Origin: Thermicanus aegyptius DSM 12793
GTDB taxonomy: Bacteria; Bacillota; Bacilli; Thermicanales; Thermicanaceae
NCBI RefSeq assembly: GCF_000510645.1
Contig: NZ_KI783301.1
Coordinates: forward strand, 3,528,236-3,586,001
DNA: 57,766 nucleotides
Direction: 5' to 3'
Made by a program: the position numbers and the translations under genes. Shown one piece after another: positions 29,621-35,937 of this stretch. Within the stretch, counting starts at the first letter, position 1. The number at the start of each line of letters is the position of its first letter. The notes under the pieces were generated by a model. It was not told where the DNA came from. It saw only the letters and a list, made by a program, of their open reading frames with translations, and made no database searches.

Positions 29621-29893
29621 ATGAATAAGCAGGAATTCGTTACCGCTTTGGCGGAAAAGACGGGATTTAAGAAGAAGGACGTAGAGACGGTATTAAACGC
29701 TCTTCTCGACGAAGTAACAGAGGCCTTAAAGAAAGGGGAGAAAGTTCAGTTCGTCGGATTCGGCACGTTTGAAACGCGGAGAAGGGCAGGACGAACCGGC
29801 CGCAACCCTCAAACCGGAGAAAGCATTACCATCGCAGAAGCGACGGTTCCCGTTTTCAAGCCAGGAAATAAATTGAAAGAAGCGGTGAAATAA
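29621..29893 (+). CDS. hup: HU DNA-binding protein
   Basis: 90 residues of the HU/IHF family: MNKQEFVTALAEKTG, VQFVGFGTFETRRRAGRTGRNP (split across the beta-arm), ending FKPGNKLKEAV. It is a nucleoid protein that bends and compacts DNA. GGAGGTTT lies before the ATG. A weak sigma-A-like pair (TTGTAG, 18 bp, TAGAGT) starts at 29570. It ends with a terminator, which separates it from the accessory cluster. Confidence 0.97.
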   Translation: MNKQEFVTALAEKTGFKKKDVETVLNALLDEVTEALKKGEKVQFVGFGTFETRRRAGRTGRNPQTGESITIAEATVPVFKPGNKLKEAVK

Positions 29894-29940
29894 GCGGAAG
29901 GGATTAAGAAATATCAAGGATGGCCAGCGTGGAAAAAAGA

Positions 29941-29973
29941 AACCTGCGTTCACAAAGGACGCGGGTTTTTTTT
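29941..29973 (+). terminator. terminator after hup
   Basis: AACCTGCGT (29941-29949) pairs with ACGCGGGTT (29959-29967), one T-G wobble, then T residues. Confidence 0.88.
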
Positions 29974-29989: not shown

Positions 29990-30044
29990 TTCACAAATGA
30001 TTCACATATTCTTGCGTAATTTGTTCACATCTTTGTGGTACATT
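29990..30044 (+). promoter_or_regulatory. putative activator-dependent promoter with TTCACA direct repeats
   Basis: TTCACA occurs at 29990, 30001 and 30024, so repeat spacings are 11 and 23 bp. Downstream, TGGTACATT (30036-30044) looks like an extended -10, but there is no good -35. OmpR/PhoB-type regulators usually bind direct repeats 11 bp apart, and such a regulator is encoded in this cluster. Sites resemble the remembered ResD box (reverse complement ATTCACAAA) in part. Confidence 0.45.
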
Positions 30045-30080: not shown

Positions 30081-30521
30081 GTGAAAGCGTTTTTATCATC
30101 TATGGTTTTAACGTTTTTTATGATGTTCGCAGTAGCGTGCGGACAAACTGGGGAGATTTCTTCTTCTTTAAATGGGATTACGGTGGAACTGCAGAAGGAA
30201 AAAGAGCCGATTCCTACCGGAGAGATGAAGGTCTATACGGTGAAGCTGACTGAAAACGGCTCCCCTGTCGACGTGGATAAGGTTTATTTTTACATGAACA
30301 TGAAAGGAATGCATCATCCTGCCGAAGGGACCATGAAAAGAGTGGATCAAGGGGTGTATCAGTTGGCGTTGCCCCTCGCCATGCCTGGGGAATGGTATGG
30401 GGAGGTTACCCTTTATAAAGGGAATGAAGAGAGAAAGGTAGAAGGATTTACGATTCAGGGAGAAGGGAAAAAATTTATGCAATATATGAAGGGATATAAT
30501 GCGGATACCCAGGGGAAATAG
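30081..30521 (+). CDS. YtkA/FixH-like domain lipoprotein with Met/His cluster
   Basis: 146 residues. The start is GTG at 30081, 8 nt after AAGGAG; an ATG two codons earlier is too close to that site. A lipoprotein signal ends at AVAC (Cys20). The rest is one Ig-like YtkA-type domain ending near 130. A short strand loop, MNMKGMHH (M72, M74, M77, H78, H79), with M85 and M101 nearby, could bind copper or another soft metal (inference). It is the first gene of the accessory cluster; the permease begins 24 nt downstream. Exact function unknown. Confidence 0.75.
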   Translation: MKAFLSSMVLTFFMMFAVACGQTGEISSSLNGITVELQKEKEPIPTGEMKVYTVKLTENGSPVDVDKVYFYMNMKGMHHPAEGTMKRVDQGVYQLALPLAMPGEWYGEVTLYKGNEERKVEGFTIQGEGKKFMQYMKGYNADTQGK

Positions 30522-30545
30522 GAGGGTAAACGAGGGGGGATATGT

Positions 30546-31742
30546 TTGATTGATCTCATCATTCGTTCTATGTTGAGGCGGAGAAAACATCTATTTCTTA
30601 CCACCGGGATTGTGGCAGGCATCTTCGCCTCCCTTTTCATCCTTTCCCTTCTCTTCTTAGGATTTCAGAATGGTGTAAACGTAAGCAATGAGAGACTTGG
30701 AGCAGATGTGGTGATTCTTCCCAAGGAGGTTCCTGTAGAGGGAAACATGGTGCTCCTCTCCGGTGAACCAGTCAATGTTTATTTTGATGAGAAGAAGACG
30801 GAAGAAGCTCTAAAAAAAATCCCGGGGGTTGGGGCGTGGACGCCACAGTTCTTCACCCAAACCTTAAATGCCGATTGTTGTTCCGTAGGCGGAGAAAATC
30901 GTCTGGTGGGGATCGATTGGAAGAGCGATTTTTTGGTGAAGCCGTGGCTAACAACGGGGAAGATTGACCATTTTGAGGGGAATATGGCTATTTTCGGAGG
31001 AAAAGTTCCTTTTTATGAGGATCGCGTACAGATCTTGGGAGAAAATTTCCGCATTGTTGGCGTTCTTGCCCCTACGGGGACGGCGATGGATTATACCATC
31101 TACATTCCCCTTGCTGAGGCTCGCCGTCTCACGGCCCATTCCGACACGGTTGTTCAATATTGGGAACAGGATGATCCATTTACCTCCTTGTCGGCCCTCT
31201 TTATCAAAGCGGAGGAAGGATATAATCCGGATTTATTGGCTTACACCCTGAACCGCATACCGGATGTGCAAGTGGTTCAGTCCAGTGAAGTTTTAAATGC
31301 AACACGAAACAGTTTCTCGTTCATGGAAAAATTGCTTTGGTTTTTTTATCTTGCATTGCTCTTTTTAGGGGCCATCGGTTTGATCGGCCGTTACAGCGGG
31401 TATGTGATGGAGCGGAAGAAGGAATTTGGTTTGATGATGGCCTTAGGGATGTCGGGGAGGAAACTTCGGGATTGGATCATAAAGGAGACCCTTCTCTATG
31501 GGATGATAGGTGCTATCCTGGGCCTTATACTCACTTTTGTTTTCTATCCGGTCATGGTGGGGTGGATTGAAAAGAATCCGCTGCAGCCTTATGTGCCTCC
31601 AAGTCTTATGGAATGGGTGGGATTAGGATTCTTCACGTTTCTCGTGACTCAAGGATTGCTCATCCTGTCTGCCCTCCTGCCCGGCAGAGGCATCTCCCTC
31701 CTATGGGCAGGCAAGGCAATGGCAGAGGGGGAATTGGAATGA
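30546..31742 (+). CDS. FtsX/MacB-type ABC transporter permease with Cys-Cys-Ser motif
   Basis: 398 residues. One N-terminal membrane helix (about 15-38), a large extracytoplasmic domain (about 40-255), then three helices (about 260-282, 310-335, 350-375): MacB-type topology. The external domain has DCCSVGG (C111, C112) followed by VGIDWKSDFLVKPWL. This CCS...DF..PWL pattern recalls permeases found beside Ftr1/P19 iron-uptake genes (recall, not a search). The start is TTG, 7 nt after GAGGGGGG; the nearest ATG runs into a stop. It overlaps the ATPase gene by 4 nt (ATGA). No HlyD-type adaptor is encoded nearby. Confidence 0.82.
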   Translation: MIDLIIRSMLRRRKHLFLTTGIVAGIFASLFILSLLFLGFQNGVNVSNERLGADVVILPKEVPVEGNMVLLSGEPVNVYFDEKKTEEALKKIPGVGAWTPQFFTQTLNADCCSVGGENRLVGIDWKSDFLVKPWLTTGKIDHFEGNMAIFGGKVPFYEDRVQILGENFRIVGVLAPTGTAMDYTIYIPLAEARRLTAHSDTVVQYWEQDDPFTSLSALFIKAEEGYNPDLLAYTLNRIPDVQVVQSSEVLNATRNSFSFMEKLLWFFYLALLFLGAIGLIGRYSGYVMERKKEFGLMMALGMSGRKLRDWIIKETLLYGMIGAILGLILTFVFYPVMVGWIEKNPLQPYVPPSLMEWVGLGFFTFLVTQGLLILSALLPGRGISLLWAGKAMAEGELE

Positions 31743-32422
31743 CCGAGCCTATGGTAAGCATAGAGAACCTCTCCCTTTCTTACCGGGAGAGGAGAAAAAA
31801 ACATCAGGTTTTAAATGGGATCACTCTTACGGTGCAAAAAGGAGAATGGGTGATGATTACCGGGGAATCGGGTGCCGGGAAATCAACCCTCCTTCATGTC
31901 ATCGCCGGGCTGCTCCCCCCCTCCGCAGGGAAGATCAGGATCGACGGACGGGAATATACCACGGAGAACGAGAGGGCGCAATTTCGGAATAAACAGATTG
32001 GGGTGATGTTTCAGGGCTCTCCGCTTCTTCCCACGTTTTTGGTTTGGGAGAACGTAGCTTTGCCTAGCCGAATCTCGGCAGGAAACAGATCCCGTTTTAC
32101 TCCTGAGGAAAGAATGAGGGCGATCGAGCTGCTGGATCAACTCGGGATGAGAGAGCATAGCGAACGTTATCCCCACCAACTAAGCCTGGGGCAGAAAAGG
32201 AGAGTGGCCATCGCCAGGGCGCTTATGAATCGCCCGACCCTTCTTCTGGCCGACGAGCCCACGAATGACCTGGATCCGATACGGGTGGAAAGCCTTCTAT
32301 CCTATTTCCAAAAAATCCATCAACAGGGAATGACCATCATCATGGTGACCCACCAGGAACGGCCTCTTCAATATGGAGATCGAAGGATTCGGTTAGAGAA
32401 CGGAACCCTAAAGGAGGAGTAA
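31739..32422 (+). CDS. ABC transporter ATP-binding protein (MacB/LolD type)
   Basis: 227 residues. Walker A GESGAGKST (42-50), Q-loop near VMFQGSP, signature LSLGQKRR, Walker B LLLADEPTNDLD, and switch histidine in VTHQ. The signature is LSLGQ rather than LSGGQ. The ATG overlaps the permease stop (ATGA), with AGGGGG just upstream, so the two form one transporter (probable 2:2 dimer). These systems typically act by mechanotransmission on periplasmic or exported substrates rather than by classic import. Confidence 0.9.
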   Translation: MTEPMVSIENLSLSYRERRKKHQVLNGITLTVQKGEWVMITGESGAGKSTLLHVIAGLLPPSAGKIRIDGREYTTENERAQFRNKQIGVMFQGSPLLPTFLVWENVALPSRISAGNRSRFTPEERMRAIELLDQLGMREHSERYPHQLSLGQKRRVAIARALMNRPTLLLADEPTNDLDPIRVESLLSYFQKIHQQGMTIIMVTHQERPLQYGDRRIRLENGTLKEE

Positions 32423-32440
32423 GGGCAGGTCCGGAAAGAG

Positions 32441-33556
32441 ATGGAGCAGAGTTTAGCCTGCAAAGAGAAATTTTCGTCGGATCGAAGGTGGAACTTAGTG
32501 AGGGATCAAAGCAATTATGGTCAAGCAGGAGAATGGGGGGGAGAGAAGAATAAAAGGAGTGGAAAAAGCGGGTGGATCGGAGGGGTGCTTTTTATCCTGC
32601 TCATTTTCATGGCGGGATGTACTCAGATATCAGGGACATTACTCCCCAGGGAGAAGGAGGTTCTTCTCGTAGGCGATGTGGTGAGGCAGGAAGTTCGCTT
32701 CTACGATTTGGATTCCTTTAAGTCCATGGGCAGTCTCCATGTAAAAAATTACCGCTTCTCCGGTTTTGAGCTCCTTGATCCGAATCGCCTATTCTTCTAC
32801 GGTACCAATGAAAAAAAGATCCTGCTCTACGATCTCGTTAAAGGTTCTGTCACAGAGGAGATCTTGGTAGATGAAGGCGTTAAAGATATAATGAAGGTAG
32901 ACAGGAACTTTTTCCGCCTTTTATTAAGTGACGGGAAAAAAGTAGCCAACCTCAGCTTCCCGGAAGGGAGAGTGGAAGTGATAAAAACTCTTCCTTTTAC
33001 CGCTCGGAAATTCATACCCTCGGAAGATCATAGGGTGCTTTATTTCCTCCATGAGGGAAAAGATCTTCTCAGCAAGGTGAATATGGAAAGCGGGAAGGTG
33101 CTCTTTACTCAGGAAGTGGTGGCGAACGCCGCCGCAGGGTGGGAGAACCCCTCTACTCATGAATTGTGGATCGGAGGGCATGGGACGGTTCAGGAGATGG
33201 TAACCTCAATTGCCCGCTATGATGCGGAAACAGGCCGCTTTCTCGGGACGTTAACCGGAGGAATCATGCCCATCCGATTTTATGCGGATAAAGAGCACGA
33301 GAGGGTTTATGTGATTAGCCATGGTTCCAACCTGGTTCAGTCCTATCGTTTTTCCGGCGAGAAACTGAACGAAGCGGATACAGGATTAAACCCGTACGGG
33401 ATTGATGCTGACAAAGAGAGGCTTTATATTGCCAATTATGACAGCAATACCGTTGATATCTTCTCAAAGGATACATTAAAAGAAGAAGGAGAATTTTATG
33501 TCGGGGATGACCCGCTTCTTATTCGGTATAGAGGAAAGGGTGGGACAGATGAATGA
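32441..33556 (+). CDS. YVTN-type beta-propeller lipoprotein
   Basis: 371 residues. A hydrophobic helix ends with MAGC (Cys60 from this start). The rest is a string of about seven four-stranded blades; RLYIANYDSNTVDIF near the end is a clear YVTN-type repeat. Such propellers bind proteins or ligands; the role is unknown. The N-terminus before the helix is about 45 residues, long for a lipoprotein. A GTG at 32498, preceded by GAAGGTGG, would place Cys at 41 and is a real alternative. The gene ends 8 nt inside the response-regulator start. Confidence 0.75.
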   Translation: MEQSLACKEKFSSDRRWNLVRDQSNYGQAGEWGGEKNKRSGKSGWIGGVLFILLIFMAGCTQISGTLLPREKEVLLVGDVVRQEVRFYDLDSFKSMGSLHVKNYRFSGFELLDPNRLFFYGTNEKKILLYDLVKGSVTEEILVDEGVKDIMKVDRNFFRLLLSDGKKVANLSFPEGRVEVIKTLPFTARKFIPSEDHRVLYFLHEGKDLLSKVNMESGKVLFTQEVVANAAAGWENPSTHELWIGGHGTVQEMVTSIARYDAETGRFLGTLTGGIMPIRFYADKEHERVYVISHGSNLVQSYRFSGEKLNEADTGLNPYGIDADKERLYIANYDSNTVDIFSKDTLKEEGEFYVGDDPLLIRYRGKGGTDE

Positions 33557-34238
33557 GCAAAAAAGCATCTTGGTCGCCGATGATGAGCAGGAGATGCGCG
33601 AATTGATCAGGGCCTATCTGGAACGGGAGAATTACCTGGTCGATGAGGCGAATGACGGTTATGAGGTGCTGGATAAGGTTCAGAAGAACTCCTATGACCT
33701 CCTTCTTCTCGACATCATGATGCCGGAATTGGACGGATTGTCCACCTGTGTCCAGATTCGCCGCTTCTCCAACGTACCGATCATCTTTTTAAGCGCATTG
33801 GGTGAAGAACTCGATCGGGTCCAGGGGCTTCGCATCGGCGGCGATGACTATATTGTGAAACCCTTCTCTCCCCGAGAATTAATGGCACGCATCGAAGCGA
33901 TCCTTCGCCGCAGTCAACCGCCCGTTTCCCACCCCCAACAGGAGGAAATGATGTTTGGGAAACTGCGCATTGATGTGAAAGGAAGAAGCGTCTATGTGGA
34001 TGAACATGAGGTGACGTTAACCCCAAAGGAATTTGAACTTCTTCATTATCTTGCCCAGCATGAAGGACAAGTCTTTTCCAGGGAACAACTCCTTAACCAA
34101 GTATGGGGTTTTGATTACTCAGGACAGGAGAGAACGGTCGATACCCATGTGAAGACGATACGGATCAAGCTGGGTGAGGAAGGAGAACGGATCAAAACCG
34201 TTTGGGGAGTGGGATACAAGTTTGAGGGAGAACCATGA
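33549..34238 (+). CDS. OmpR/PhoB-family response regulator
   Basis: 229 residues from ATG 33549, with AAAGGGTGG upstream; longer frame into the previous gene is not needed. Receiver domain: acidic pair DD at 11-12, phospho-acceptor D55 in LLLLDIMMPE, and lysine in VKPFSPRE. The C-terminal winged-helix DNA-binding domain has LTPKEFELLHYLAQHEG and the recognition region ERTVDTHVKTIRIKL. It overlaps both neighbours, so it belongs to the transporter operon and likely controls it. Confidence 0.93.
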   Translation: MNEQKSILVADDEQEMRELIRAYLERENYLVDEANDGYEVLDKVQKNSYDLLLLDIMMPELDGLSTCVQIRRFSNVPIIFLSALGEELDRVQGLRIGGDDYIVKPFSPRELMARIEAILRRSQPPVSHPQQEEMMFGKLRIDVKGRSVYVDEHEVTLTPKEFELLHYLAQHEGQVFSREQLLNQVWGFDYSGQERTVDTHVKTIRIKLGEEGERIKTVWGVGYKFEGEP

Positions 34239-35647
34239 AATTTAAAGATTGGTCGATCCAAACCAAGCTGACCCTTACCTACATTTCCATCGCCTTGATT
34301 ACCCTTTTGTTTGCCCTCTGGTTTGGAAGAATGGTTTATGAGAGCATATATGTAGGCCAATTGAAAAAAACCCTCATGGATGAGGGGAATTCTCTCCTTC
34401 AAGAATATGACCCGGCCAAGCCGGAGGATTTCCCTAAGTTGGTCGACCTGGCAAGTCGTCTCTCTAAAACCATGATCCTTTATACGAATAATCCGAGGGA
34501 GTTGGGAGCTTGTATTCCCTTTGAAGGGGAAAATGAGGAATCGATCATCAATCTGACTCAGCGCAAAGCATTGCTGAGGGGGGAGACCGTCGTCTCCATG
34601 GGGTATAATCGCGGGGTAAACCGGAGCATATTGGCCGTTGCGATCCCACATCTCGATGAAAAACGGAAACTGCTTGGGATTCTTTTTTTATATATTCCCC
34701 TTGCCACCATTAGCGAAACTTTTGCAGAGATGAAATGGTTCTGGTTTCTCTATGGGGTCGCATTCTACCTCCTTGCCATTCTTCTTTCTTGGTGGATTAG
34801 CCGCCGCATCTCTTCACCCATTCGCTCCATGGATGAAGTCGCCCAGGCCATGGCGGAAGGGAACTATGGGAAGAGAGTAGAAGTGACAAGCCATGATGAG
34901 ATCGGTCACTTGGGGGAAGTATTAAATCGGCTCTCCACCAATCTTGAAGAGGTGGAAAATAAAAGGAGGGAATTTACTGCCAATCTATCCCATGAATTGC
35001 GCACCCCGCTGAGTTATATCTCCGGTTATAGTGAAGCCCTTTTAGAGGGAAAAACCCCTCCCGAGAAGGAAAGGGAATACCTGGAGATTGTCCATCGTGA
35101 AAGTCTACGGTTGAAGCGATTGGTGAACGACATGCTAGACTTAGCCCAATTAGAAGGGGAGAATTACCCGCTGAAAAAAGACCTCTTTCCCTTTGCTCAA
35201 CTGGTAGAGGAGGCGGTACAACCCTTTCGGGCCGCCGTGGAGAAGAAAAGGCAGACGTTATCTTTAAACCTGGATCCTTCCGTCATTTTAGAGGGGGATC
35301 GGGATCGTTTAAACCAGGTAATACAGAACCTGGTGGATAACGCCGTGAAATATACACCGGAGGGGGGAGAAATCGCGATTTCCTTAAGGGAGGAGGGAGA
35401 GTGGGTTATACTGGAAATCTCCGATTCGGGCATCGGGATCCCGCCGGAGTCTCTCCCTCGCATCGGAGAGCGTTTCTACCGTGTTGATCGTTCGCGTTCC
35501 AGGCGACAGGGGGGGACCGGTATCGGAGTGGCGATTGTGAAGCGAATCTTGAATAATCATGGGGGAATGCTTCAATACGAAAGCCGCCTGGGGGAAGGGA
35601 CGAAAGCGACCGTGAAACTGCCCCGTTGGCGAGAAAAAGGGGAATAA
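34235..35647 (+). CDS. HAMP-domain sensor histidine kinase
   Basis: 470 residues. TM1 at about 11-31, an extracytoplasmic sensor of about 135 residues containing a single cysteine (C93), TM2 at about 168-188, and HAMP at 190-240. The phospho-acceptor H253 lies in LSHELRTPLS. The ATPase has the N box (NLVDNAVKYTPEGG), DSGIGIP, and a slightly unusual G2 box GTGIGVAIVK (normally GLGLAIVK). The ATG overlaps the regulator stop. Together they form a two-component pair; the signal is unknown. Confidence 0.93.
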   Translation: MKFKDWSIQTKLTLTYISIALITLLFALWFGRMVYESIYVGQLKKTLMDEGNSLLQEYDPAKPEDFPKLVDLASRLSKTMILYTNNPRELGACIPFEGENEESIINLTQRKALLRGETVVSMGYNRGVNRSILAVAIPHLDEKRKLLGILFLYIPLATISETFAEMKWFWFLYGVAFYLLAILLSWWISRRISSPIRSMDEVAQAMAEGNYGKRVEVTSHDEIGHLGEVLNRLSTNLEEVENKRREFTANLSHELRTPLSYISGYSEALLEGKTPPEKEREYLEIVHRESLRLKRLVNDMLDLAQLEGENYPLKKDLFPFAQLVEEAVQPFRAAVEKKRQTLSLNLDPSVILEGDRDRLNQVIQNLVDNAVKYTPEGGEIAISLREEGEWVILEISDSGIGIPPESLPRIGERFYRVDRSRSRRQGGTGIGVAIVKRILNNHGGMLQYESRLGEGTKATVKLPRWREKGE

Positions 35648-35667: not shown

Positions 35668-35937
35668 ATGAGGGTGGATCAATTTTTAAAAGCATCCAGA
35701 TTGGTTAAGCGCCGGACTGTGGCGAAGGAACTGGCGGATCAGGGAAGAGTTCTGATCAACGGCCGTACGGCAAAAGCCGGGACTACGGTATCGGTTGGAG
35801 ATAAACTGACGCTGCTTTTCGGACAGAAAGAAGTAACGGTAGAAGTCCTTGATCTAAAGGAGAATCCGAAAAAAGAGGAGGCCGATTCCTTATATCGTAT
35901 GATCGAGGAGAAAAAAAGAGAGAGTGATGAAGGGTAA
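35668..35937 (+). CDS. rqcP: ribosome quality control protein RqcP (YabO), S4 domain
   Basis: 89 residues starting MRVDQFLKASRLVKRR, an S4 RNA-binding domain (Hsp15-like). RqcP binds stalled 50S subunits and supports alanine tailing by RqcH. GGAGATGGAGG selects this ATG. It lies 20 nt after the sensor kinase with no terminator or promoter between, so it is probably read from the accessory operon. A terminator after it separates it from yabP. Confidence 0.93.
   Translation: MRVDQFLKASRLVKRRTVAKELADQGRVLINGRTAKAGTTVSVGDKLTLLFGQKEVTVEVLDLKENPKKEEADSLYRMIEEKKRESDEG

Follow-up and report, generated by a model that had tools for sequence, protein, structure and literature searches.

In the genome of Thermicanus aegyptius DSM 12793, six plus-strand open reading frames (ORFs) at positions 30081–35647 of the stretch analysed here (57,766 nt of contig NZ_KI783301.1, positions 3,528,236 to 3,586,001; hereafter the window) lie between hup (29621–29893) and rqcP (35668–35937). 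The cluster is two pre-existing modules joined, not a chance grouping. Module A consists of a YtkA-domain lipoprotein, an FtsX/MacB-fold permease with a Cys-Cys pair in its ectodomain (the CysCys permease) and an ATP-binding cassette (ABC) ATPase; module B consists of a beta-propeller lipoprotein, an OmpR-type regulator and a sensor kinase. With somewhat more confidence than doubt, the whole is read as an autoregulated operon supplying copper on the extracytoplasmic side, mainly to heme-copper oxidases, with copper as the presumed ligand. The features are as follows.

29936–29972, plus strand: terminator-like hairpin with a T run, 3' of hup (−20.7 kcal/mol, z −6.65, 0 of 200 shuffles equally stable)
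29990–30044, plus strand: proposed operator/promoter, with TTCACA at 29990, 30001 and 30024, then 9 bases and a TACATT −10 element (30039–30044)
30081–30521, plus strand: YtkA-domain lipoprotein, GTG start, lipobox Cys20, motifs MNMxGMHH and LAMPGEW (PF13115, E 1.1e-9)
30546–31742, plus strand: FtsX/MacB-fold permease (PF02687 and MacB_PCD), ectodomain Cys111-Cys112, Asp124 and Asp128
31739–32422, plus strand: ABC ATPase of the LolD/FtsE type (ABC_tran), ATGA overlap with the permease gene
32441–33556, plus strand: beta-propeller lipoprotein, lipobox MAGC, with GGHG (His207), MP (Met236) and HG (His254), numbered from 32561
33549–34238, plus strand: OmpR/PhoB-type response regulator, 45–62% identical to module-B regulators
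34235–35647, plus strand: sensor histidine kinase, ectodomain NPRELGACIPF with invariant Cys93, HAMP/HisKA/HATPase

The initial annotation, made from the sequence alone, had described six genes of these types, and the co-oriented ORFs and Pfam matches (PF13115, PF02687/MacB_PCD, ABC_tran, OmpR-type, HAMP/HisKA/HATPase) bear it out, as does the Cys-Cys-Ser stretch at permease residues 111–113. The propeller assignment also holds: the single sequence scores weakly, and the family profile matches YVTN/YncE propellers of known structure (1l0q, E 1.5e-45). A single-sequence AlphaFold model of the propeller was unusable (predicted local distance difference test, pLDDT, 46). Overlapping junctions number three rather than the four claimed: permease/ATPase (4 nt), propeller/regulator (8 nt) and regulator/kinase (4 nt). 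There are gaps of 24 nt between the YtkA and permease genes, at least 18 nt between the ATPase and propeller genes (the start of the latter is uncertain, either 32441 or an internal GTG near 32500) and 20 nt between the kinase gene and rqcP. Since a strong hairpin with a T run terminates hup, the cluster starts its own transcription unit. The six genes are likely one operon.

Module A and the heme-copper oxidases

The permease was searched for in 60 relatives. Of the other five genomes of the order, three have hup-ytkA-permease-ATPase-rqcP-yabP at this site, and no propeller or two-component genes there. G001 and G003, of the same order, have no such permease, no PF13115 match and no PF00115 oxidase, and the four module-A genomes of the order carry two to five PF00115 oxidase genes or fragments each; the match of oxidase to module A within the order is all-or-none, but the numbers are small (4 vs 2). 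The YtkA of the cluster is the only PF13115 match in its genome. A scan of genome contigs with the permease found no true relative. A side observation concerns G002 (contig C34, 56472–57730), where a cytochrome oxidase subunit I match falls in two overlapping pieces in different frames, a frameshift or an assembly error.

The cluster permease has both the CC-x11-D-x3-D ectodomain motif and a full-length match to the family profile; Cys111-Cys112, Asp124 and Asp128 are common to all eleven of the first family members. Among 300 genomes of the class, members occur in 30, in single copy and all with E < 1e-140, and the Cys-Cys pair, which was not a search criterion there, is present in every one. 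Rows of the tree were selected for the motif, so its constancy in the tree is partly by selection, and the pair is missing in two weaker phylum or plasmid members that score above 200 bits. A profile built from the linked ccoN has matches in 27 of the same 300 genomes, including all 25 with a clade-I permease vs 2 of the 275 others (Fisher 2e-34, a value inflated by the relatedness of the genomes); ccoN without the permease is found only in G095 and G255. The match extends within families, sampled genomes of f12 and f27 without one being without the other. The two genes are adjacent in 13 of the 25, usually as ccoNOP-permease-ATPase-valS, and because they are apart in the other 12, linkage alone is not the explanation of their co-occurrence. 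A relative on the clade-I side from another class also adjoins ccoNOP, with a FixG-like gene. There is only a partial account of how copper is loaded into cbb3 and other oxidases in Gram-positive bacteria, which do not have the full set of known proteobacterial factors, and the near-perfect co-occurrence with the cbb3 oxidase makes the CysCys permease a specific copper-loading candidate. A literature search gave nothing relevant on CcoNOP with MacB, on YtkA with a propeller and ABC genes, or on DUF4418.

The permease of this genome's order falls in clade II of the tree. Elsewhere, clade-II neighbours include DUF4418 (15 of 20 loci), cytochrome bc genes, PCuAC (in G022) and propellers.

At six Clostridia-type loci (L142, L143, L148, L151, L154 and L156) the CysCys permease and ATPase genes lie beside DUF4418 proteins and ABC genes of the substrate-binding-protein type; the binding proteins have a Cys near the start (GGTCEAP, SRKDCTLAP), L142 also has a nitrogenase component-1-like gene, and these loci may serve the uptake of a sulfur compound or a metal. 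At L145, L146 and L147, as read from the sequence, permease, ATPase and DUF4418 are followed by cytochrome c, Rieske and cytochrome b genes. Two PLSDB plasmid records of 2.1–2.6 Mb, L161 (NZ_CP084075.1) and L162 (NZ_CP154629.1), resemble whole chromosomes.

Module B and its copper-related neighbours

Propeller and kinase-sensor matches adjoin in 34 of the 37 class genomes with a propeller match, this one included, and module B is syntenic in 33 other Bacilli. A regulator with 45–62% identity lies between propeller and kinase in all 20 loci read. The propeller motifs GGHG, MP and HG (an invariant His/Met/His) are kept in 20 of 20 loci and in the cluster, and the kinase motif NP-x2-L-x-AC-x-P is kept in module B, with the cluster kinase conforming; the cluster thus fits module B in gene order and in the motifs of both proteins. 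The kinase of G051 (L239:3925–5691) exceeds the others in length by about 120 residues, possibly owing to an added PAS domain.

A PF13115 YtkA gene stands beside module B in 12 of the first 20 loci and in all 13 held-out loci (25/33), where rough expectation is 0.5% per locus. In three further loci YtkA is replaced by NosL together with NosD or NosFY, the NosY neighbours being ABC2_membrane proteins. The initial annotation had proposed looking for co-occurrence with cytochrome or copper genes, and it is found for both halves: the permease family with the oxidase, and module B with YtkA, NosL, NosD and NosFY. Its test for a chance grouping, co-occurrence in other genomes, has a divided outcome: the complete six-gene set has no second instance among the sampled genomes, and each half does recur. 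That the halves repeatedly pair with copper genes argues against chance.

In the Bacillaceae-like loci L227, L236 and L238, module B is read downstream of hemY or hemE-hemH-hemY, and this neighbourhood suggests a context of heme/copper oxidase supply.

The cluster encodes none of the usual MacB adaptors, as had been remarked, and the two lipoproteins had been offered as a substitute. Of the two, only YtkA accompanies the ABC pair across this order. The propeller is mostly found with the regulator and kinase, which makes a role in sensing more probable for it than one as adaptor. A propeller does occur with the CysCys permease family in three distant genomes (G022, G340 and G671); the first two keep GGHG, MP and the last His, and G671 does not.

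Regulator, kinase, permease and ATPase genes are also adjacent in antibiotic or peptide sensing and detoxification systems of the BceRS-BceAB type. A function of this kind is very improbable here, and the BceRS-AB-like reading was rejected on architecture: the permease, of about 400 amino acids, has a single MacB-type ectodomain, vs a 646-residue chain for BceB, and the kinase ectodomain has 130 residues, not the short loop of BceS. The neighbours in the relatives, moreover, are copper genes.

Repeats upstream of ytkA and module B

Upstream of module B, TTCACA-N5-TTCACA with at most one mismatch per half occurs in about half of 20 loci, where 0.66 sites would be expected in all of them together. 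Extended to TTCACA-N5-TTCACA-N9-TATAAT, the pattern scores at least 14 at 12 of 13 held-out module-B loci; among 315 regions upstream of other ORFs in those loci, 3 reach this score. One belongs to nosL of G016 (L237:2431–2958, score 15), which suggests that the module-B regulator also drives the copper-loading nos operon there. In the cluster, three exact TTCACA copies precede ytkA, and the pair at 29990 and 30001 is the only exact TTCACA-N5-TTCACA in the 3.66 Mb genome; a degenerate fourth repeat would fall at about 30013. The 29990–30044 element is the only such plus-strand site in the window scoring at least 14. No TTCACA-type site precedes the propeller gene of the cluster, and no such operator precedes ccoN or the clade-I permease genes. 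The placement of the repeats would fit one operon under the module-B regulator, the putative binder of the motif. A genome-wide TTCACA regulon in G000 was also considered (24 one-mismatch sites vs 4 for a control pattern) and rejected: at none of the 14 other sites read does a correctly spaced −10 element precede an evident copper gene.

It could be that the modules are merely side by side, module A loading copper and module B regulating something else, since each occurs separately elsewhere and f12 genomes have both, unlinked. The operator-like repeats are ahead of module A and not ahead of the propeller, however, the ATPase-propeller gap is just 18 nt, this propeller type is paired with the permease family in other lineages (G022, G340), and module B is repeatedly found with copper ABC or YtkA genes; a coincidental juxtaposition is accordingly rated improbable.

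Copper as the presumed ligand

The lipoprotein carries a signal with lipobox Cys20 and matches the YtkA family at 39.3 bits (PF13115, curated cut-off 25.9). The closest solved fold to its model (pLDDT 67.6) is that of copper-binding CrdA (Z 11.7 over 103 residues), other folds being at about 8–10. Met74, Met77 and Met101 align at a constant offset with CrdA Met72, Met75 and Met99, which are among its probable Cu ligands (PMC9182242); comparison of the two sequences gives no homology (E 0.83). YtkA of B. subtilis (CtaK) is reported as apparently assisting copper delivery to the oxidase CuA centre, and a YtkA protein as standing in for NosL in a Geobacillus nos cluster (PMC13068155). Of the substrates first offered for the cluster (copper, iron or an oxidant), copper remains the best.

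In the proposed mechanism, the YtkA lipoprotein would hold Cu(I) by Met and His residues on the membrane's outer face. The CysCys permease and ATPase would move or hand over copper, or drive its hand-over mechanically in the manner of MacB-type transporters, so that YtkA could load oxidase copper sites. Through its His/Met/His site the propeller lipoprotein would inform the kinase of the copper status, and the regulator would bind the TTCACA repeats ahead of ytkA and activate all six genes. We infer the direction of transport and the contact between propeller and kinase.

The same components could serve export or detoxification of copper (or silver), with surface sensing of excess copper, the ABC pair removing it and YtkA as a sponge. 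The nearest YtkA fold is that of a copper-resistance protein, and in G022 the permease occurs together with a PCuAC lipoprotein and a propeller but there is no heme-copper oxidase. The tight link to cbb3, the all-or-none oxidase match in the order and the NosL/NosD neighbours point to supply instead, and the resistance genes to be expected for export (CopA, CopZ and CsoR) were not recognised by eye beside the loci, where no profile scan was made. Export is considered unlikely.

Another ligand, such as iron (as for P19/FtrA), a thiol or heme, is quite unlikely. In P19/FtrA systems a copper-binding protein of the Ig fold is partnered by MacB-like permeases, and the YtkA model also matches P19/FetP/FtrA (Z 8–9); Clostridial relatives adjoin sulfur-metabolism and nitrogenase-like genes, the Cys-Cys pair could serve thiol chemistry, and module B follows hemE-hemH-hemY in some genomes. 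CrdA is nevertheless clearly the better match, the neighbours that can be named are copper proteins, and Ftr1, TlpA and DUF2318 were not recognised at the loci read, again with no profile scan made.

Several observations weigh against the preferred reading of copper supply to oxidases under module-B control. A number of clade-II permease genomes, including the propeller- and PCuAC-linked G022, have no heme-copper oxidase, and some clade-II loci have sulfur or nitrogenase-like genes nearby; because many clade-II hosts have no oxidase, the task of the permease family must be wider than oxidases. The −10 spacing of the perfect TTCACA pair differs from that in module B, the 9-base spacing being found only for the third repeat (30024). 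G002 belongs to the same order and lacks module B, and the sequence upstream of its ytkA nearly matches the repeats; sites of this kind could therefore be recognised by a different regulator. Finally, the YtkA of the cluster is only 16–20% identical to those beside module B; the pairing is therefore not simple inheritance, and a different YtkA occupies the module-B YtkA's place here.

A broader proposal has two parts, taken together: that the CysCys permease and ATPase are a hitherto unnamed copper-handling machine serving the heme-copper oxidases of Bacillota, equivalent to NosFY but with the MacB fold, and that propeller, regulator and kinase are a widespread three-component copper sensor with the propeller as metal receptor. 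This is tentative, and rather more open to doubt than not. The propeller-regulator-kinase set (34 of 300 sampled class genomes) in any case gains a candidate ligand, a candidate operator and candidate targets in ytkA and nosL.

Comparison with known systems

No named system is known to have exactly this gene set, as the initial annotation had noted. Like CtaK of B. subtilis, the cluster's YtkA is a lipoprotein with this Pfam domain, and it is the sole YtkA-domain protein of its genome; CtaK is described as a single factor, whereas the cluster protein has an attached ABC pair, and the two are likened by domain, not orthology. CrdA and CrdRS of Helicobacter pylori offer the best fold match, matching Met positions and two-component regulation, but CrdA works with a resistance-nodulation-division (RND) efflux pump. 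P19/Ftr1 iron uptake differs in that no Ftr1 is among the six ORFs. The permease and ATPase folds are those of the mechanotransmission ABC transporters MacAB and LolCDE, although the cluster lacks a MacA adaptor and an outer-membrane partner, its ATPase is separate rather than fused, and its permease bears the CysCys signature. In Parageobacillus, a propeller lipoprotein in a likely operon with a two-component system has been described as a "three-component" locus (AOT13_14255–14265), with no ligand given (PMC13068155). Matched by description, it is probably a module-B locus, for which no copper link, operator or ABC pair was proposed.

The NosDFYL system, which loads copper into nitrous oxide reductase, likewise combines a copper lipoprotein with an ABC permease and ATPase acting outside the membrane, and its genes are immediate neighbours of module B in three Bacilli. 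The cluster permease is of the FtsX/MacB type where NosY is of the ABC-2 type, there is no NosD beta-helix or NosZ, and the place of NosL is taken by the YtkA lipoprotein. The best reading is that the cluster works like NosDFYL without being a member of it.

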